Assembly (NCBI RefSeq): GCF_022012475.1
Contig: NZ_JAKLWS010000004.1
Span: 1 to 64,000 of the forward strand
Reading direction: 5' to 3'
Length of the DNA stretch: 64,000 nt
DNA from: Rhodohalobacter sulfatireducens
GTDB lineage: Bacteria; Bacteroidota; Rhodothermia; Balneolales; Balneolaceae
The translations under genes and the position numbers were made by a program. Below, one piece after another: positions 1,443-18,942 of the stretch. Under the pieces are notes generated by a model, which saw nothing but the letters and a program-made list of their open reading frames with translations, did not search any database and was not told the DNA's origin. Within the stretch, counting starts at the first letter, position 1. Every line of letters starts with the position of its first letter.

Positions 1443-4091
1443 ATGACCAAATTTTCGAAGTTTCTTCTGATTTTTGTACTCCCGTGTATTGGTGTATTTA
1501 TAGAAACCTCATCACTTTCTGCTCAGGAAATCCAGTTCGATAATAAACCAGCGATAGAGGTATTCAATCAACTCCAGGATGAAACAAATTTCCGTTTCCT
1601 CTATCGGGAATCGTTAGTCTCAGACCTTCGTCTATCACTGCAAACTGATCATGAGACTTTTATAGATGACATTAAAACCAGCCTTCAACGCCACCAATTA
1701 ACCACTAGGGTTGATAGTGTAGGAAAGCATATCATAGTACTTCCGGATCAATCAGAGCCGGATAAAAGCTCTGAATCAGTCCGAATTTCAGGCCGGGTCG
1801 TTGATGCACAAACCGGAGAACGTCTCCCCTACAGTACCCTGTACTGGCAAGAGAATGGAACAACCAATGGAGTTGTCGCCTCAACATCCGGTCGTTTCCA
1901 GGCCACAGTCAACCCAAAACAAGAACAAATAAACCTAAAAGCCTCATTTGTTGGTTATCAGGAATCCAATGTTACGATTCCGATCTTTTCGGGAGAGCAA
2001 ATTGATGATATCACGATACGCCTCAAACCAAAAAGTGTAACCGGGGCAGAAATTATTGTGATTGGAAACCGGTATTACTCACCACAAGACACTTCATTGG
2101 CAGGTCTGATAAGTACCGACCGTTTTAGTCCGTTGGGCGAAAGTAATGCTATACGGGCTCTGCAGGTTCTTCCGTCAGTGGGTACAACAACTGCAATGAA
2201 CGATGGCTTGAACATAAGAGGGAGTACGCCTGATGGATTTCAGCTTGAGCTCGACGGCATCACAATTTTCAATCAAAGCCATCTGTTTGGATTGCTGGAC
2301 AGTTTTAACGAAAGTGCTGTTTTAAACAGCGGCTTTTTTTATGATGTGAGTCCGGCTCATATAAATTCCCCAATTGGCGGAAAGCTCTCTCTCACAACGC
2401 GAAGTGGTTCTCTACAGAATACAGAGATTGAAGCGGGAATCAGCAATACAAGTATCAAATCTACCATAGGCGGACCAATTCAAAAAGGAAAAAGCAGTTG
2501 GTTGATATCCGCTCGATCTTCTTATATGAACCAGGTCGACTGGTTTCAAAACAATGAACTGGTTCGCTGGGGACTTGATATCAATCGGCCCGGATCTGAC
2601 ATTGGCTCTGCTGAAAATATCGAAACAAACCTTGTTACTCCACGAAATTCAGATGTTTACTATTTAGACATCCACGGCAAGCTGTATTTTGAGCAAAAAA
2701 GCGGAAGCAGAACTATGGCGAGCCTTTATTTTGGAGGCGACCGTACAAACCATATTGCCGACCGCCTGGTACGAAGCAGTGCATCTCAGCGAAACTTTCA
2801 AACCCAAAATGTAGAAACCGAAAACAGATGGAATAATTTTGCTTCCTCCGTTCAGCACCAACGTTCTCTATCAGCCTCCGTGTACAGTAACACTATGTTA
2901 GGTTTGAGCACTTATGAAACACTTTTTAGAAAGGGCGATTTTCTCTATACAAACGTCACCCAAAGCGGCGAATCGCTCCAAACAACGGTATTTACATATC
3001 CGCTTTTGAACCGGAGCACCATGAACAGAGTCAAACTGGATCAAACCTTTGATATCCAACAAGATGAATTCTCGTTTAAAACAGGATTCACCGGGTATTA
3101 TCACAGGGGTGAATACAGGGAAGAATCGTTCGATCGCCAATCATTTTATGCAAGAACGTCAAGTATCCAGGCAGATCTTTTTTTACAATCGGAGCTGAAT
3201 CCCTTTGATTTTTTCTCTCTTCAGTCGGGAATCCGAACCCATTACTACTCTTCAGGTAAATATTTTCGAATATCTCCAAGAATAAAAGCCAATCTCTTTT
3301 CAGATAAAATTTTCTCAGTAAGTGCCGGGTATAGTAGAAATCACCAGTTCATTAACAGGGTGGGGTTCAGTAATGCTGTCACCGCAGATGTATGGGTTCT
3401 TGCCAATGAAACACAAGCCCCGTCCTCCGTTGATCAATTCACGGCGGGGATCTATATCAATCCAGTTTCCCGATTCTATTTACAGGCCGAAGGCTATTTA
3501 AAACGATATAAAAATCTCAGGTCTCATGAACTGAATGCCCAATCCCTTACAAACACTTTTACGGATTCTCCCTGGTTCTATGACAACGAAGGAGAAGGTA
3601 AAGGAGTAGAATTTTTAGCCCGCTATCGCGCCGGTTTTGTTACATTTTCCCAATCGTATACACTCTCTTCAATGAAGCTCCGCAATGATTCAATAAATGA
3701 GGGTGAGGAGTTTTACGCTCCGTGGGATCGAACACATGTTGGAACCACTAATCTCACTTTTAATCTCTCCTCGAATATTCAGCTGTTTGCTGCCTTTATC
3801 CTAGGCAGTGGTTCAGTAACCGGGACTTATGATTTTGCAAGAAATCAAAGTAGTCGACTGGGTACATACAGACGATTAGACATGTCTGCATTGTTCACCA
3901 AATCGATCGATGGAAAAACCATTCATGCAAAGTTTTCTGTGTTCAATCTATTGGATGAGCAAAATCCCTGGTATCGTGAATATCAGCCTGTGATTGTGAC
4001 CAGAAATACTGTGCCAGCGATTCGATCAGAAATTGTGAGTGTGTATGATCTTGGAATCCAGCCCTCGTTCGAGATCAAAATAGATTTTTAA
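1443..4091 (+). CDS. FecA-like TonB-dependent outer-membrane receptor with STN signalling domain
   Basis: 882 residues: signal peptide (1-28, ending SLSAQ), STN secretin/TonB short domain (about 29-100), a carboxypeptidase-regulatory-like beta-sandwich (about 113-195, starting VRISGRVVDAQTGERLPYS), then the plug (about 215-320, with NIRGSTPDGFQLELDGITIF and GGKLSLTTRSG) and a 22-strand-type barrel to the C-terminal Phe (FEIKIDF). Together with the fecR gene 8 bases upstream, the STN domain marks it as a transducing receptor: substrate binding would be signalled through FecR to an ECF sigma factor. The substrate is not readable from sequence; iron complexes or glycans are the usual cargo of this architecture. 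Its 3' end overlaps the convergent glycosylase gene by 17 bases. Confidence 0.88.
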   Translation: MTKFSKFLLIFVLPCIGVFIETSSLSAQEIQFDNKPAIEVFNQLQDETNFRFLYRESLVSDLRLSLQTDHETFIDDIKTSLQRHQLTTRVDSVGKHIIVLPDQSEPDKSSESVRISGRVVDAQTGERLPYSTLYWQENGTTNGVVASTSGRFQATVNPKQEQINLKASFVGYQESNVTIPIFSGEQIDDITIRLKPKSVTGAEIIVIGNRYYSPQDTSLAGLISTDRFSPLGESNAIRALQVLPSVGTTTAMNDGLNIRGSTPDGFQLELDGITIFNQSHLFGLLDSFNESAVLNSGFFYDVSPAHINSPIGGKLSLTTRSGSLQNTEIEAGISNTSIKSTIGGPIQKGKSSWLISARSSYMNQVDWFQNNELVRWGLDINRPGSDIGSAENIETNLVTPRNSDVYYLDIHGKLYFEQKSGSRTMASLYFGGDRTNHIADRLVRSSASQRNFQTQNVETENRWNNFASSVQHQRSLSASVYSNTMLGLSTYETLFRKGDFLYTNVTQSGESLQTTVFTYPLLNRSTMNRVKLDQTFDIQQDEFSFKTGFTGYYHRGEYREESFDRQSFYARTSSIQADLFLQSELNPFDFFSLQSGIRTHYYSSGKYFRISPRIKANLFSDKIFSVSAGYSRNHQFINRVGFSNAVTADVWVLANETQAPSSVDQFTAGIYINPVSRFYLQAEGYLKRYKNLRSHELNAQSLTNTFTDSPWFYDNEGEGKGVEFLARYRAGFVTFSQSYTLSSMKLRNDSINEGEEFYAPWDRTHVGTTNLTFNLSSNIQLFAAFILGSGSVTGTYDFARNQSSRLGTYRRLDMSALFTKSIDGKTIHAKFSVFNLLDEQNPWYREYQPVIVTRNTVPAIRSEIVSVYDLGIQPSFEIKIDF

Positions 4092-12362: not shown

Positions 12363-13448
12363 ATGAATATAAAAATAACCCAAACAGATCAAAGCAGAAT
12401 CTCTGAAATCGATTTTAACAATCTCCAGTTCGGTCGCGTGTTTTCCGACCATATGTTTGAGATGGTCTATCGTGATGGAAAGTGGGTAGATGCTGAAATT
12501 AAACCGTACGGCCCTATCACATTCGATCCGTCCATGATGGCCCTTCATTATGGGCAAGCCATTTTTGAAGGAATGAAGGCGTACTATGCTGATGATGAGA
12601 CAATCAACCTGTTTCGTCCAATGGATCACCACAAACGCCTGAACAATTCTGCAAAACGATTGTGTATGCCCGAGATCGATGAATCCGTATTTATCGATGC
12701 TCTCGAAAAACTCCTTCAACTCGATTATAAATGGGTTCCCAAAACTCACGGACATGCTCTATACATTCGTCCGTTAATGTTTGCATCCGAAGAATATATT
12801 GCCGCAACCGTTTCAAAAGAATATCATTTCTACATTATTACAAGTCCTGTAGCTGCTTACTACAAAGAGGGCTTTAATCCAGTTTCTTTAACCACTACTA
12901 ACGAATACGTTCGGGCAGCCAAAGGTGGAACCGGCGAAGCTAAAGCAGCCGGCAATTACGGTGGAAGTCTCCTGCCAGCTATAAAAGCTCAAGAAGAGGG
13001 CTACACCCAGGTATTATGGCTCGATGCCAAAGAGCACAAGTATGTAGAAGAGGTAGGCACCATGAATATCTTCTTTTTGATGGGTGATACTGTTGTAACC
13101 CCAGAACTTGGCGGTACGGTTTTACCGGGAATTACCCGGCGATCTGTACTTGCCCTGGCTAAAGAATGGAATTTAAATGTTGAGGAACGAAAGATTACTA
13201 TAGAGGAGGTATTCGAATCCCACGAAAATGGAGAATTGAATGAGGTTTTTGGGGCAGGAACGGCAGCCGTTATTTCTCCGGTAGGTTTGATCCATCACAA
13301 CGGAAAAACCATAACTTTAGATCAGGAAAAAATCGGTCCTTTCGCCAAAAAAATGTTTGATGCAATCACCGGCATTCAATACGGAAATCAAACCGATCCT
13401 CACAGTTGGACTCATCCTGTTAAGGTTAGCTCTGCAGTTCTTTCGTAA
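12363..13448 (+). CDS. ilvE: Branched-chain amino acid aminotransferase
   Basis: 361 residues, the length of type II BCATs. PLP-binding Lys194 sits in 'GEAKAAGNYGGSLLPA', preceded by 'ALHYGQAIFEGMKAYY' (60-75) and followed by the class-IV signature 'KYVEEVGTMNIFF' and 'GTVLPGITRRSVLALAKEW', 'EVFGAGTAAVISPVG'. It transfers amino groups between glutamate and Leu, Ile, Val keto acids in the cytosol. Monocistronic by layout. Confidence 0.95.
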   Translation: MNIKITQTDQSRISEIDFNNLQFGRVFSDHMFEMVYRDGKWVDAEIKPYGPITFDPSMMALHYGQAIFEGMKAYYADDETINLFRPMDHHKRLNNSAKRLCMPEIDESVFIDALEKLLQLDYKWVPKTHGHALYIRPLMFASEEYIAATVSKEYHFYIITSPVAAYYKEGFNPVSLTTTNEYVRAAKGGTGEAKAAGNYGGSLLPAIKAQEEGYTQVLWLDAKEHKYVEEVGTMNIFFLMGDTVVTPELGGTVLPGITRRSVLALAKEWNLNVEERKITIEEVFESHENGELNEVFGAGTAAVISPVGLIHHNGKTITLDQEKIGPFAKKMFDAITGIQYGNQTDPHSWTHPVKVSSAVLS

Positions 13449-13650
13449 AAATTTTATAAATAATTGCAAGATTGATCTTAGTTAATTAGTATAAATTGTT
13501 AGGAAATTAAGAAGCGTTGATTTTCCAGTCAAAATTTCTGCGTTGAGCTTTTCTATTAGTTTTTTTGTGGAAATTATTTCTCTCCTAATTACATGCAATT
13601 AGATATACAAAGAAGTAGTTTTAAACCGTTTCTTATTAAACAAGTTTAAA

Positions 13651-13660
13651 AAGGAGGAGT
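13651..13660 (+). promoter_or_regulatory. Unusually strong Shine-Dalgarno sequence
   Basis: AAGGAGGAGT ends one base before the ATG at 13662. Most genes here show weak or no SD, so this perfect match stands out and fixes the start of the first plug lipoprotein. Confidence 0.7.
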
Positions 13661-13661
13661 T

Positions 13662-14078
13662 ATGAGAACAGCAATCATTCTTTTAATCTTTGCATTTGCG
13701 GCTTTTACGGTCGCTTGCTCCTCTGTGAGCTCTACAGTTGCTGGTGATAACAAAAACAGGCCGGAAGGAAGCGTTTATGATGACAATGATTATTTCACCA
13801 GTCTTGCCGATTATCTGCATAAAGTACCCGGAGTAAATATTTCAGGTTCGGGAATGGTGACAATTCGTGGTATGAACTCATTCGATACCACATATTCTCC
13901 GATTACTCCATTATTCGTAATAGACGGAATTGCAGTGGGTTACTCATACAATGAAGCTAATAGAATGGTGCATCCGCTTTACATAGATTACGTAAAAGTT
14001 TTGAAAGGTCCTGATGCGACCATTTATGGGTCAAGAGGTGGTAATGGAGTTATTGAGATCGTAACGAGAAAAATGTGA
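13662..14078 (+). CDS. Stand-alone TonB-receptor plug-domain lipoprotein (paralog 1)
   Basis: 138 residues: lipoprotein signal with Cys19 (FTVACSS), a short Ser/Gly linker, 'YFTSLADYLHKVPGVNISG', then the plug core 'VTIRGMNSF', 'PLFVIDGIAVGYSYNEANR', 'IDYVKVLKGPDATIYGSRGG', 'NGVIEIVTRKM'. The protein stops where the barrel of a SusC/RagA-type receptor would start. It is therefore a membrane-anchored plug without a barrel. Family knowledge gives the plug a role in closing the receptor pore and contacting TonB/substrate; what a free, lipid-anchored plug does is not known to me. First of three tandem paralogs, least similar to the others. Confidence 0.85.
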   Translation: MRTAIILLIFAFAAFTVACSSVSSTVAGDNKNRPEGSVYDDNDYFTSLADYLHKVPGVNISGSGMVTIRGMNSFDTTYSPITPLFVIDGIAVGYSYNEANRMVHPLYIDYVKVLKGPDATIYGSRGGNGVIEIVTRKM

Positions 14079-14438
14079 TGTTCAGTTTTTTAAAAAACTA
14101 CTCCACATGACTATTATAAAGATATTGTATCAGTTTAAAATTGTTTACAGTAAACCATGTCGGAAAATTCAATTGTATATACCAAAAATATTTAGAAATT
14201 TTTTAACACATTAGATCCGACTTAACAATAACTGAGCTTAAGTTAATGCAATTAATTCAGTACCGTACTTAAATTCTTTGTATATCAAATATAAAATCTT
14301 TTTATATAGTTGATGGAAATGCAGTTGGTTACCTCTGATGTTGTGTCTAAATACCATACTGAGTCCGCAAGAAAAGAATTTAATTTTCGTTTTTAATAAA
14401 AGTGGTACAATATCAATAAAGAATAAATCGGAGATGCT
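14079..14438 (+). other. 360-base intergenic stretch, AT-rich, with plug relic
   Basis: No intact gene. It holds the short plug-like relic at 14300-14338 and otherwise AT-rich sequence that may carry the promoter of paralog 2; no convincing promoter box was identified. Confidence 0.5.
14300..14338 (+). pseudogene. Relic of a fourth plug-lipoprotein paralog
   Basis: The frame reads F-Y-I-V-D-G-N-A-V-G-Y-L then TGA (14336-14338), matching 'LYVVDGQAVGNS' and 'LFVIDGIAVGYS' of the neighbours. No start, lipobox or C-terminal 'LKGPDA' part can be found nearby, so only about 11 codons survive. Position between two paralogs supports a degraded duplicate; the match is short and could be chance. Confidence 0.5.
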
Positions 14439-14849
14439 ATGAAATTTAAATTTTTTTTACCAATTATCGCGTTGTCACTAATGTTTGCAGCTTGCACTTC
14501 AACGGGTAGTACTACATCAAATAACACAGATACGGATGGAAGAATATCGAATGAAAATGATTACTACAGAAGTTTAGCGGACTACTTAACCAAAGTACCG
14601 GGTGTAAATGTGAGAGGTTCTGGCGAAAATGCTTATGTGACAATTCGGGGCATAAGTTCTTTTCAATCCGGCAATACACCTCTGTATGTAGTGGATGGTC
14701 AAGCTGTCGGTAATAGTTATTCACGCGCAAATAACATTGTGAATCCCCAGGATATAGATTATGTTCGTGTACTTAAAGGACCTGATGCTGCAATTTACGG
14801 GGTTCGGGGTGCAAATGGCGTTATTGAAATAATAACGAAAAAGACCTAA
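14439..14849 (+). CDS. Stand-alone TonB-receptor plug-domain lipoprotein (paralog 2)
   Basis: 136 residues. Lipobox LMFAACTS with the acylated Cys at about 19, then a Ser/Thr/Asn linker and the plug: 'YYRSLADYLTKVPGVNVRG', 'AYVTIRGISSF', 'PLYVVDGQAVGNSYSRANN', 'DIDYVRVLKGPDAAIYGVRG', 'ANGVIEIITKKT'. It is very close to paralog 3 (the stretch DIDYVRVLKGPDAAIYGVRG is identical), pointing to recent tandem duplication. 54 bases separate it from paralog 3, so both may share one transcript. As for paralog 1, the barrel is absent by design, not by frameshift: the stop follows the natural plug end. Confidence 0.85.
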   Translation: MKFKFFLPIIALSLMFAACTSTGSTTSNNTDTDGRISNENDYYRSLADYLTKVPGVNVRGSGENAYVTIRGISSFQSGNTPLYVVDGQAVGNSYSRANNIVNPQDIDYVRVLKGPDAAIYGVRGANGVIEIITKKT

Positions 14850-14903
14850 TAAAAGATTGTTACTACACGTTTAGATAACAAATACATAACCAATCACAAT
14901 TCT

Positions 14904-15317
14904 ATGAAACATATTTTAGCTTCTTCGATCATTGCATTTGCACTGATTTTCTCTGGATGTTCGTCTGTAGGTTCTTCAGTCTCTCATAACTCAGGCAGAC
15001 CTGACGGCAGTATATCTGATGATATGAATTACTTCAGAAGCCTCGCCGACTTTCTGGAAAACGTTCCCGGTGTTAGCGTACAAGGCCAGGGTAATAATGC
15101 ATATATAACAATTCGTGGTATTAGCTCTTTTAACACAACAAACGAGCCACTTTATGTGATTGATGGACACGCAGTTGGAAATTCTTATATCGAAGCCAAT
15201 AGAATTGTTACACCAAATGACATCGATTATGTTCGTGTTTTGAAAGGGCCTGATGCAGCCATCTATGGAGTCCGGGGTGCCAACGGTGTTATTGAGATTG
15301 TAACAAGGAAAGTTTGA
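14904..15317 (+). CDS. Stand-alone TonB-receptor plug-domain lipoprotein (paralog 3)
   Basis: 137 residues. Lipobox ALIFSGCSS, linker, then 'YFRSLADFLENVPGVSVQG', 'AYITIRGISSF', 'PLYVIDGHAVGNSYIEANR', 'DIDYVRVLKGPDAAIYGVRG', 'ANGVIEIVTRKV'. Its sorting is likely to a lipid anchor in the outer or inner membrane; the residues after Cys (S-S-V-G) contain no obvious retention Asp. Possible roles are a decoy or regulator of TonB, a trans-acting plug for barrel-only receptors, or a surface ligand-binding lipoprotein; none is shown by the sequence. Confidence 0.85.
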   Translation: MKHILASSIIAFALIFSGCSSVGSSVSHNSGRPDGSISDDMNYFRSLADFLENVPGVSVQGQGNNAYITIRGISSFNTTNEPLYVIDGHAVGNSYIEANRIVTPNDIDYVRVLKGPDAAIYGVRGANGVIEIVTRKV

Positions 15318-15358
15318 TCTGTGATTGTTTGTTATTTAGGTGTAGCAAAGAAATTGCT

Positions 15359-16288
15359 TTAACTGTTTCCACCAATAGTGTAGTATTGGCTTGTTACCAA
15401 CGGGCGAGGAGATTTTTTATTTAAATGTAGATCTATGCGACCCAAACGTATACCGCTATGTCCCATCTGCGTTATAAGTGTTTCTGAACCGTCTGGATTT
15501 TCAACCGCTACATGATTATCCAAAAAAGTGTGAGTATGCCCTCCAATAATAAGATCTATACCGGATACTTCTTGCGCCAGTGAAACATCATCTATTTGAT
15601 TTCCATCATATTCATACCCTAGATGGCTCAGGCAAATGATATAATCACATGCATGAAAATTACGGAAGTTTTCTACAGATCTTTTCGCACTCAGAACCGG
15701 ATCACGATAGTGAACCCTTCCGTGTAGTTTTGGATCTACAATCCCTTCGAGCTGAATGCCCAATCCGAAAATGCCAACTTTATATCCATCTATCTCTTTA
15801 ATAAGTTCATGCTCTACAAATGGGTGCATCGGGGTATTCCACGTTGAGTAGTTCGCACACAGAAAAGAAAATTCTGCACTCTTTGCTGCATCAGCAAAAC
15901 CCTCCAAACCTAAATCGAACTCATGGTTTCCGATAGCCATCGCATCGTATCCCATCTCGCTCATCATCTCAAAATCTACTTTACCTCCATACTGATCAAA
16001 CCATGGTGTCCCCTGGAATACGTCTCCGGCATCCAATAAAAGAACATTTTTTTCTTCAAACCGTATTTTTTTTACAAGTGAGGATCGTTTTGCAATTCCG
16101 CCAAGTCCGGCAAACTCTCTTGCGTTCTTTGGATAAGGATCAATTCGTGAATGCGTGTCGTTTGTATAAAGAATGGTAATCGAAGGATTCTCAATAAGGT
16201 CAGTGAATTTGTCAGCAATCCCTGGAACTACGGCAGATCCCGCAAGTGCATAAACCGACTGTTTTAGAAATGTTTTTCGTGAAATCAT
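15359..16288 (-). CDS. 5'-nucleotidase catalytic (metallophosphoesterase) domain protein, Tat-type signal
   Basis: 309 residues. The N-terminus MISRKTFLKQSVYALAGSA resembles a Tat signal with a single Arg-Lys. The metallophosphatase fold of UshA/5'-nucleotidases follows: 'ILYTNDTHSRID' (Asp44, His46), 'LLLDAGDVFQGTPW', 'AIGNHEFDLG', 'CLSHLGYE', 'LIIGGHTHTF'. The C-terminal substrate-binding domain normally fused to it is missing and instead encoded by the gene immediately upstream, overlapping by 4 bases (16285-16288). Together they should hydrolyse periplasmic nucleotides or related phosphoesters. The clear metal-ligand motifs make the catalytic assignment firm; the substrate is inferred. 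Confidence 0.88.
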   Translation of the reverse strand: MISRKTFLKQSVYALAGSAVVPGIADKFTDLIENPSITILYTNDTHSRIDPYPKNAREFAGLGGIAKRSSLVKKIRFEEKNVLLLDAGDVFQGTPWFDQYGGKVDFEMMSEMGYDAMAIGNHEFDLGLEGFADAAKSAEFSFLCANYSTWNTPMHPFVEHELIKEIDGYKVGIFGLGIQLEGIVDPKLHGRVHYRDPVLSAKRSVENFRNFHACDYIICLSHLGYEYDGNQIDDVSLAQEVSGIDLIIGGHTHTFLDNHVAVENPDGSETLITQMGHSGIRLGRIDLHLNKKSPRPLVTSQYYTIGGNS

Positions 16289-17004
16289 CGACGGATCCGG
16301 CCATCGGTTGAAGCCGTCAGCTCCACCTGATTTTTAAAGTAGTTTATATACACTTCCCGGATGGATAGTTCGAGGTCTGATCGATCAGATACATTCCAAA
16401 GCGCCGGAAATTTGTCGCCACCATTTGCCGCCCAACTGCTTGTTGCCACTAAATATGTCTCATCCGGATCTAAAACCTGGGCATTCACCAACACACTGTT
16501 TGGATTTCCATCTTCATCAATTCGAAAACGCACACCGCTTATGGGGGCTCCTCCCATATCGGCCACTTGCTCAATCAGCGTCATCAGTTTTTCACCACTC
16601 ATTGAAAGCACGACAAGATGATTATTATAGGGCATAAATTCGTAAACATCTCTTACGGTTAATTTGCCGGGTACGAAATATAGTTTAAACGATTCTTCCC
16701 CCGTGATCCCCACATGTACGAATTGCCTTAGAGTGCTCGCAGCCTGGAATCTCAGGGCATCGGCTACAATATTATTCAGTGATGATTCCGGTTTTCCAAA
16801 CTTAAGAGTGTCCTGAACAGTGGCTACCTTCTGCCCCATTACCGAATTCATAGAGTCTCTGTATGCATCCAGTTGTCGGGCCATTTGTGGATCAGGCTCA
16901 GGATAGGCAGATGTTGGTTGTTCAATTTCAGTCGTTGTAGAAAAGTAAGCGCAGCCGGTAAGAAGGAAACAAAATCCGATTACCCGGATAATTCTATAAC
17001 TCAT
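16285..17004 (-). CDS. 5'-nucleotidase C-terminal domain lipoprotein
   Basis: 239 residues with a lipobox (FCFLLTGCAYF). The body matches the substrate-binding 5_nucleotid_C domain: 'SSLNNIVADALRFQA', 'VHVGITGEESFKLYFVPGKL', 'TVRDVYEFMPYNNHLVVLSM', 'GAPISGVRFRIDEDG', 'YLVATSSWAANGGDKFPAL'. It lacks the catalytic metallophosphatase half, which is the next gene (4-base overlap), so the enzyme is split into an anchored binding subunit and a separate catalytic subunit. Translational coupling through the overlap would keep them at equal dose. Confidence 0.88.
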   Translation of the reverse strand: MSYRIIRVIGFCFLLTGCAYFSTTTEIEQPTSAYPEPDPQMARQLDAYRDSMNSVMGQKVATVQDTLKFGKPESSLNNIVADALRFQAASTLRQFVHVGITGEESFKLYFVPGKLTVRDVYEFMPYNNHLVVLSMSGEKLMTLIEQVADMGGAPISGVRFRIDEDGNPNSVLVNAQVLDPDETYLVATSSWAANGGDKFPALWNVSDRSDLELSIREVYINYFKNQVELTASTDGRIRR

Positions 17005-17805: not shown

Positions 17806-18942
17806 TTAAGCTTCCAGCTCAAGCTGTTCTTCTATCTCCACATTTACTTTGTGGATCCAACCACCGGCTACAACATCGTCGCCCTCGTAACAAACTACAG
17901 CTTGACCGGGTGTTATCGCTTCCCTCCCAGCCGGAAATGTAACTTCAATTTCCTCGTCAGAGAGTTGCTTTAAAGTTCCGATTGCTCCGTTATCATTATA
18001 CCTGATTTTTCCGGTCATTTCCATCTTTCCGCCGGGAATTTTATCATATTTTACCAAGTTGATCTCTTTCGCACGGCATGTAGTACTGATCAGATCTTTC
18101 TTTTCTCCAATCGTTATGACGTTTTTTTCCGCATCAATGTCAGTGACATACACAGGTTTACCCATTGCTAGATTCAAGCCGCGTCTCTGTCCAATGGTAT
18201 AAAATGGAAATCCTTTATGTTTGCCTACAATATTTCCTTGCTGATCTACAAAAACACCACCACTCACTTTCTCTTCGAGATCGTCAACTTTATCTTTCAG
18301 AAACCGATGGTAATTGTTATCAGGGATGAAGCAAATTTCGTAGGAATCAGGTTTATTGGCTACATTCAACAGGCCATACTCTTCAGCAATGTCGCGAATT
18401 TCAGTTTTACGATACTTACCGAGTGGAAAAATTGTTCGTTCTAGGTGTTCTTGCCGAACTCCCCAAAGTGCATACGATTGATCTTTGTTATGATCTTTCC
18501 CTTTTGAGATAACATAGCGGCCATTTTCTTCGCGAACATTTGCATAATGTCCTGTTGCGATATAATCACAACCGAGATTATCGGCTCGTCTGAGAAGTGC
18601 CGCCCATTTGATATGAGTATTACACAGAACACATGGATTGGGTGTTCGTCCGCTGGTATAATCTTCAATAAACCGGTCGATCACCCAGTTACCGAACTCG
18701 TCTCTAATATCTACAATAAAATGTTTGAAGCCGTGACGTACTGCAATTTGGCGGGCATCATTCATGGACTCTACGGTGCAGCAGCCCGTTTCTTTCCCGT
18801 TATTGCCACCACTTCGGTGGTAATCCCAGGTTTTCATAGTGATGCCAATCACCTCGTATCCTTGTTTGTGAAGCATTACAGCCGCAACGGAAGAGTCAAC
18901 TCCACCACTCATTGCAACCAGAACACGTCCTTTTTTACTCAT
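17806..18942 (-). CDS. mnmA: tRNA-specific 2-thiouridylase MnmA
   Basis: 378 residues. PP-loop SGGVDSS (12-18), 'GCCTVESMNDARQIA' (53-67), nucleophile Cys104 in NPCVLCN, persulfide Cys204 in SYEICFIPD, plus 'ATGHYAN', 'KDQSYALWG' and 'TIGQRRGLNLAMGKPVYV' and a C-terminal beta-barrel. It thiolates U34 of Lys, Glu and Gln tRNAs using sulfur relayed from a cysteine desulfurase. The start ATG 18942 gives the canonical short N-terminus before the PP-loop. Confidence 0.97.
   Translation of the reverse strand: MSKKGRVLVAMSGGVDSSVAAVMLHKQGYEVIGITMKTWDYHRSGGNNGKETGCCTVESMNDARQIAVRHGFKHFIVDIRDEFGNWVIDRFIEDYTSGRTPNPCVLCNTHIKWAALLRRADNLGCDYIATGHYANVREENGRYVISKGKDHNKDQSYALWGVRQEHLERTIFPLGKYRKTEIRDIAEEYGLLNVANKPDSYEICFIPDNNYHRFLKDKVDDLEEKVSGGVFVDQQGNIVGKHKGFPFYTIGQRRGLNLAMGKPVYVTDIDAEKNVITIGEKKDLISTTCRAKEINLVKYDKIPGGKMEMTGKIRYNDNGAIGTLKQLSDEEIEVTFPAGREAITPGQAVVCYEGDDVVAGGWIHKVNVEIEEQLELEA

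Follow-up and report, generated by a model that had tools for sequence, protein, structure and literature searches.

The window analysed here, a stretch of 64,000 nucleotides from Rhodohalobacter sulfatireducens, contains three real genes in tandem, all on the plus strand and each with an ATG start and an intact ORF, whose products consist of a signal peptide with a lipobox, followed by a short linker and then a plug of the SusC type (Table 1). The earlier note on this DNA, made from the sequence alone, had described them as three tandem plug-only lipoproteins, each with a lipobox and with neither a barrel nor a frameshift. Our results agree with this description: the ORF coordinates were exact, the ORFs end at 136-138 residues, the lipobox cysteine is residue 19 in all three, and Plug (PF07715) is the sole Pfam match, nothing else reaching an E-value of 0.001 for genes 1-3. 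The Plug scores (52.0, 65.4 and 65.6 bits for genes 1-3) lie far over the cut-off of 23.9, and the matches are therefore not due to chance. Against NCBIfam, all matches listed for the three genes were below the respective cut-offs, including those to the SusC/RagA family TIGR04056 (50.8, 82.0 and 77.9 bits; curated cut-off 368.25) and to the SusC signature TIGR04057 (37.0, 41.6 and 40.4 bits; cut-off 46.2). A fourth free plug was found on another contig of the same genome (G000:C116:41018-41431).

Table 1. Coordinates of the genes and related features (window positions unless a locus is given)
Feature	Position	Strand	Remarks
Free-plug lipoprotein gene 1	13662..14078	+	138 aa; lipobox Cys19 codon 13716-13718; PF07715 match 13794-14051
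Free-plug lipoprotein gene 2	14439..14849	+	136 aa; lipobox Cys19 codon 14493-14495; PF07715 match 14565-14822
Free-plug lipoprotein gene 3	14904..15317	+	137 aa; lipobox Cys19 codon 14958-14960; PF07715 match 15033-15290
Probable relic of a further plug copy	14285..14332	+	SNIKSFYIVDGNAVGY, then Leu and stop; blastx E 0.002 to the G005 ortholog of gene 1 (database of 11 proteins, composition correction off)
Branched-chain aminotransferase-like gene (ilvE by eye)	12363..13448	+	directly upstream of gene 1; syntenic
Barrel-less CarboxypepD-like plus plug proteins (by eye)	L113 5744-7113 (tandem); L117 9518-10261; L198 7309-8028

Some details of the earlier note required correction. Copies 2 and 3, which it had called nearly identical over the plug core, share 70 of 92 core positions, and the ending NGVIEIVTRK, which it had given for all three proteins, is present in copies 1 and 3, copy 2 having NGVIEIITKK. 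The gap between genes 1 and 2 is unusually long in the window and holds the probable relic of a further copy, the same gap being 57-59 bp in genomes G005 and G012. The identity of the relic is suggestive, because the database was tiny and composition was not corrected for; the relic suggests copy gain and loss within the array. A strong Shine-Dalgarno-like sequence, AAAGGAGGAG, lies immediately 5' of gene 1 (window 13650-13659, plus strand); such strong sequences are unusual in Bacteroidota. A promoter and terminator scan of 13400-15420 was uninformative, with seven promoter-like sites (8.6 in shuffles) and no terminators.

Predicted fold and missing parts

The AF2 model of copy 3, built from 17 sequences, had block pLDDT values of 79-93 over the plug core, with one block at 67, and matched the plug of SusC BT1763 from model residue 35 onward (Z 9.3, rmsd 2.7, 97 residues). 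When this model was used for structure searches, TonB-dependent receptors accounted for all of the 50 best matches in one search and for 49 of 50 in the other, the odd one being a weak match to 6l7q (Z 3.4). By sequence, all 33 PDB matches of the free-plug profile were receptor chains, the homology to a SusC in the PDB had an E-value of 1.1e-15, and no solved relatives other than receptors were found in the PDB. The fold predicted for copy 3 thus matches that of the SusC plug. According to an excerpt of PMC11658791, the isolated plug of FepA behaves as an unfolded protein, so that autonomous folding of a free plug is uncertain.

The PF07715 matches of genes 1-3 begin at profile position 22 of 107. 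The earlier note had spoken of a complete SusC-type plug; the plug is indeed present, possibly with its first strand retained, but the proteins lack the TonB-box region. A TonB-box-like motif was found in 22 of the 27 own receptors examined and in none of the 49 members of the main free-plug clade described below, the three window proteins included, with a pattern which was written after viewing the receptors and which misses two near-matches (L015 and L030). In copy 3, the cysteine is located 16 residues before the glycine at which the structural match begins. Judging from the sequences, the lipid anchor would sit roughly where SusC has its TonB box.

Distribution, phylogeny and constraint of the free plugs

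Of 394 genomes of the phylum, at least 36, with at least nine family codes, had short-frame matches (at most 280 amino acids) to profile A1; the 36 were counted by hand among the listed matches, some of the frames carry other N-terminal parts, and, as about ten candidates were scored per genome, the number is a minimum and a genome without a listed match does not certainly lack the family. Among 50 genomes of the Balneolaceae group, the family of the window genome, the best 46 matches were all short frames and a free plug was found in at least 24 of the 50, with the same reading of presence and absence. Free plugs occur, for example, in records named Fulvivirga lutimaris, Cyclobacteriaceae and Saprospiraceae, in several Bacteroidales MAGs (mostly ruminant) and in two MAGs titled Gemmatimonadetes.

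We reconstructed a phylogenetic tree by a quick search from sequences aligned to the free-plug profile (103 rows, 91 columns); 12 of 39 long-frame receptors were left out, 3 of the 27 own receptor rows were dropped as too gappy, and free plugs masked by longer overlapping ORFs or longer than 260 amino acids (L110, L137, L194, L200 and L201) are not included. The tree united 49 of the 66 free plugs in a single group (SH-aLRT 96). On this tree, the label of free plug or receptor changed four times, compared with a mean of 30.6 when the labels were shuffled. The remaining 17 free plugs fall outside the main group; they include those of Bacteroidales and one from Gemmatimonadetes, and a GYG-like element precedes the plug in 10 of the 17. 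They may represent separate origins, although the starred branches of the tree are still compatible with a single origin of all free plugs.

The main clade has constraints of its own. The loop after 'IDG', measured from DG to the conserved isoleucine, has 18 residues in all 49 clade members, whereas it ranges from 12 to 34 residues in 39 receptors; in FhuA, the equivalent loop forms a plug apex in contact with the ligand. The segment from PGV to IRG has 12 residues in 42 of 49 clade members, compared with 15-17 in 33 of 37 receptors. Within the loop, the clade has the motif G-x-x-[YF], with glycine at column 47 in 45 of 49 members (12 of 35 receptors) and tyrosine or phenylalanine at column 50 in all 49 (12 of 32 receptors), and the arginine of IRG is kept in 47 of 49. 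The fixation of a loop that varies among receptors suggests one common role for these proteins rather than many substrate specificities.

Individual copies could be followed into G005 and G012. The orthologs of gene 1 in these genomes (79% and 74% amino acid identity, respectively) grouped with it at SH-aLRT 97, gene 1 paired with its own G005 ortholog at SH-aLRT 90 and gene 3 with its G005 copy at SH-aLRT 100; therefore, at least copies 1 and 3 split before the divergence of the window species and G005. Gene 2 and its G005 copy, matched by identity only, are 84% identical with a dN/dS of 0.039 (dS 2.4, near saturation), and copies 2 and 3 have no clear one-to-one counterparts in G012. The four ortholog pairs with G005 had dN values of 0.094-0.119, with synonymous sites saturated in two, and the two computable pairs gave dN/dS values of 0.039 and 0.119, which are signs of purifying selection on the free plugs. 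The window plugs are members of a dedicated, old and widespread bacterial family.

Barrel-less plug proteins of another kind, secreted-looking and with a CarboxypepD-like start followed by a plug, were seen by eye in three loci (Table 1).

Membrane side, gene neighbours and the receptors of the genome

A lipobox was found in 59 of 60 free plugs shorter than 215 amino acids, all three window proteins included, with a loosened version of a pattern which was at first too strict (45 of 60). According to a passage in PMC5080379, export of surface lipoproteins in Bacteroidetes needs an acidic signal, for example K-(D/E)2. Two or more D/E residues at positions +2 to +7 were present in 12 of the 15 own SusD proteins and in none of the 59 free plugs with a lipobox; among other lipoprotein-like neighbours, the count was 28 of 91. 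We know of no experiment on the acidic export signal in Balneolaceae. The absence of the motif of SusD suggests that the free plugs are probably periplasm-facing, although the count among the other neighbours weighs against this argument, since it implies that many lipoproteins go without the motif for other reasons. The free plugs are thus predicted, from their N-termini, to be probably periplasm-facing outer-membrane lipoproteins.

The gene neighbourhood was analysed in 37 locus groups, which we delimited by judged synteny; a few of the barrel-less plug proteins in them have no lipobox. Flanking genes were called by a simple longest-ORF procedure. Genes for SusC, SusD or FG-GAP/ASPIC proteins lay within 2.5 kb of a free plug in 8 groups and were absent from that distance in 29, including that of the window, where none was found in the 26 kb examined (window 4001-30000). 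Same-strand runs of SusC, SusD and plug genes occur in L201/L202, L212 and L114 (the last from a MAG titled Gemmatimonadetes), and FG-GAP/ASPIC or FG-GAP proteins in L184, L200, L201, L202 and L212 by Pfam and in L199 by our own profile only. In L110, from a MAG titled Gemmatimonadetes, two tandem plugs (2683-3695) face a SusC-SusD-FG-GAP/ASPIC set on the opposite strand, so that the arrangement may extend beyond Bacteroidota.

By a rough estimate based on about 18 SusCD sets in 5.1 Mb, one or two of the 37 groups would be expected to have such neighbours by chance, and more in SusC-rich genomes. The density of SusCD genes within the loci, from near to far from the plug, was 9, 13, 16, 15 and 10% of bases with no peak at the plug; this control is indecisive, because a SusCD gene set takes up as much DNA as a whole examined stretch. 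Among the 50 genomes, the median SusD count was 9 with free plugs and 2 without (p 4e-6); within genera, the permutation p was 0.057, and 0.13 after adjustment for size. Free plugs are commoner in SusD-rich Balneolaceae, an association confounded by phylogeny and genus, and genomes with free plugs span 1 to 41 SusD places. The link between free plugs and SusCD is suggestive.

No universal partner operon was found, the neighbours varying by clade. The ilvE-like gene upstream of gene 1 was directly adjacent in 11 loci of the own group, the window included (71-89% identity), and the other six members of the ilvE cluster are distant aminotransferases 3-7 genes off, five with 25-35% identity and one without a listed match; we regard it as a syntenic neighbour and claim no functional link. 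On the minus strand of the window (15359-17004), a 5'-nucleotidase-like enzyme, named by eye, seems to be divided between two ORFs that overlap, one for the catalytic part and one for a C-terminal part that is a lipoprotein, and each of them recurs in further genomes of the group (clusters c2 and c3). An mnmA-related gene (17806-18942, cluster c1) lies a few genes from the array, and in Fulvivirga lutimaris (L103 9995-11760) a free plug adjoins an mnmA-like gene (by eye); this proximity possibly reflects old synteny or chance. In L109 and L118, from Bacteroidales/Bacteroidia MAGs, a GY-type free plug lies between two set-conserved genes (clusters c71 and c70), and an ABC transporter ATPase-like gene (by eye) follows the set.

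We also searched the genome for barrel-only TonB receptors, since the earlier note had proposed that the free plugs gate such receptors. The 42 Plug places listed in the genome comprise the three described here and 39 in frames of 637-1150 amino acids. A listed plug shares the frame in 25 of the 27 PF00593 barrel places and in 9 of the 11 PF14905 places, and the 18 SusC proteins that score over the TIGR04056 cut-off all align with almost the full length of the model. Two receptor-like proteins (L220 and L229) have sub-threshold Plug matches, and two others (L219 and L231) have no Plug match by profile and show plug-like motifs by eye. Nearly all listed receptors own a plug, and therefore no plugless TonB receptor was shown, L219 and L231 being possible exceptions. 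One candidate, L230, with CarboxypepD and no plug, was rejected as it is a DUF5686 protein, and C82 is a short frame with just a weak match to the CarboxypepD region.

Possible roles and comparison with known systems

Our preferred reading, which we put forward tentatively and with less than even confidence, is that the free plug is an accessory plug uncoupled from TonB, placed on the periplasmic side and docking on a SusCD/TonB-dependent import partner. The lipid anchor would replace the TonB box, so that TonB could not pull the plug in the usual way, and would tether the protein under the outer membrane; the plug might then dock on one common partner, the likeliest candidate being the mouth of SusC-type barrels on the periplasmic side, and help to close, assemble, chaperone or protect these barrels. 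The lipid tether, the lack of a handle for TonB and the standardised loop fit accessory docking on a common partner. Against this, the window array and most locus groups have no SusCD neighbours, and a second plug could not enter a resting barrel, because the resolved receptors already hold one.

In 29 of 37 locus groups, that of the window too, SusC, SusD and FG-GAP/ASPIC genes are missing from the 2.5 kb around the free plug. Together with the fixed loop length and the clade-specific residues, this would also suit a plug fold exapted for a periplasmic job unrelated to TonB-dependent receptors, in a structural, regulatory or self-assembling lipoprotein. This possibility is real but rather unlikely; that SusC-SusD neighbours recur across several families and also among Gemmatimonadetes MAGs argues against it, as does the greater frequency of free plugs in SusD-rich genomes, confounded as it is by genus. 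It is doubtful that the free plug is a periplasmic ligand catcher, which would bind imported ligand leaving SusC and hold it near the outer membrane. A passage in PMC11658791 reports that the isolated plug of FepA binds ferric enterobactin at 5 uM, that is weakly, even while behaving as unfolded, which makes such a role possible, and the conserved aromatic residue in the loop after IDG and the copies beside SusCD genes are consistent with it. A loop fixed in 49 of 49 members is, however, unlike receptors of varied substrates, and the family occurs across genomes with 1 to 41 SusD places. A further variant, in which lipid-tethered, TonB-independent plugs act in trans as corks, going into SusC-type barrels or covering them from the periplasmic side, and keep the outer membrane sealed, either during assembly or once the built-in plug has been pulled out, seems improbable; if true, it would provide sealing for bacteria with many large importers.

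The roles that the earlier note had proposed were not supported. Surface lipoproteins are common in the phylum, according to an excerpt of PMC5080379, but a surface binder is very improbable for proteins in which the acidic export-like motif is missing in 59 of 59 cases and present in 12 of 15 own SusD proteins. The idea of a plug acting in trans on barrel-only receptors of this genome could draw on the conserved plug fold, on the kept IRG arginine (47 of 49) and on L219 and L231; with a listed plug in 25 of 27 PF00593 places and 18 of 18 SusC, sub-threshold Plug matches in two more proteins and plug-like motifs in L219 and L231, this role is highly improbable. Titration of TonB can scarcely be credited: nothing favours it for the family of the window, in which the TonB-box-like motif (a post hoc pattern) is found in 0 of 49 members compared with 22 of 27 own receptors and the lipid anchor lies near the box position, although 10 of the 17 other free plugs keep a GYG-like element beside the place of the box. 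Finally, apart from one apparently decayed copy within the array, non-functional remnants of truncated receptors are disfavoured to the point of near dismissal by the single group across families, the low dN/dS in two computable ortholog pairs, the lipobox in 59 of 60 and the pairing of copies 1 and 3 with their own G005 orthologs (SH-aLRT 90 and 100).

The earlier note had held that a lipid-anchored free plug has no known function, and had considered that the family might be widespread with a known role; the family is widespread, and no role in print was found. No description of a free or stand-alone plug lipoprotein family was found in the open-licence PMC papers searched, its absence in print being unproven; the plug domain was already known, and what was not found in the literature searched is a conserved lipid-anchored family without barrel and TonB box. 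Plug domains are normally viewed as inseparable, TonB-moved parts of receptors, and this family shows that they can have an independent life. If the accessory plug that we prefer does act on SusC-type importers, it would be a missing component of a main nutrient uptake system of Bacteroidota and a natural test of how open barrels avoid leaking.

Among known systems, the closest is the plug of SusC/RagA receptors (PF07715; BT1763), with the same predicted fold, clear sequence homology and the core motifs PGV, IRG, PL.VIDG and YG.RG.NGVI in common. The free plugs differ from these receptors in lacking the barrel, the TonB box and the CarboxypepD extension and in having a lipid anchor, a fixed 18-residue loop and a shorter PGV-IRG segment. 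Like SusD and other surface lipoproteins of SusCD sets, they are lipid-anchored and sometimes belong to the same gene set, but they differ from SusD in the acidic export-like motif (0 of 59 compared with 12 of 15). Llp is reportedly a superinfection-exclusion lipoprotein of phage T5 which forms a complex with a TonB-dependent receptor. In the entry with Llp in its title (PDB 8a60), the structural match hits the FhuA chain and not Llp, and we claim no relation.

An excerpt of PMC12704123 lists PorF, a predicted plug domain-containing protein, among the outer-membrane proteins needed for type IX secretion; an excerpt of PMC7568257 uses that name for two B. thetaiotaomicron genes, one of which is BtuB, and an excerpt of PMC12578637 contains no word beginning with 'plug'. 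An Oar receptor without its plug still reaches the outer membrane, at a lower level, and does not support secretion, as stated in a passage of PMC6434023. No chain of the T9SS Plug was among the 33 PDB matches of the free-plug profile, which were compared by sequence, and the likeness to that protein, a separate protein closing an outer-membrane barrel, is by analogy only. According to an excerpt of PMC10994853, this Plug seals quiescent SprA, and by that analogy a free plug could seal or chaperone a barrel.
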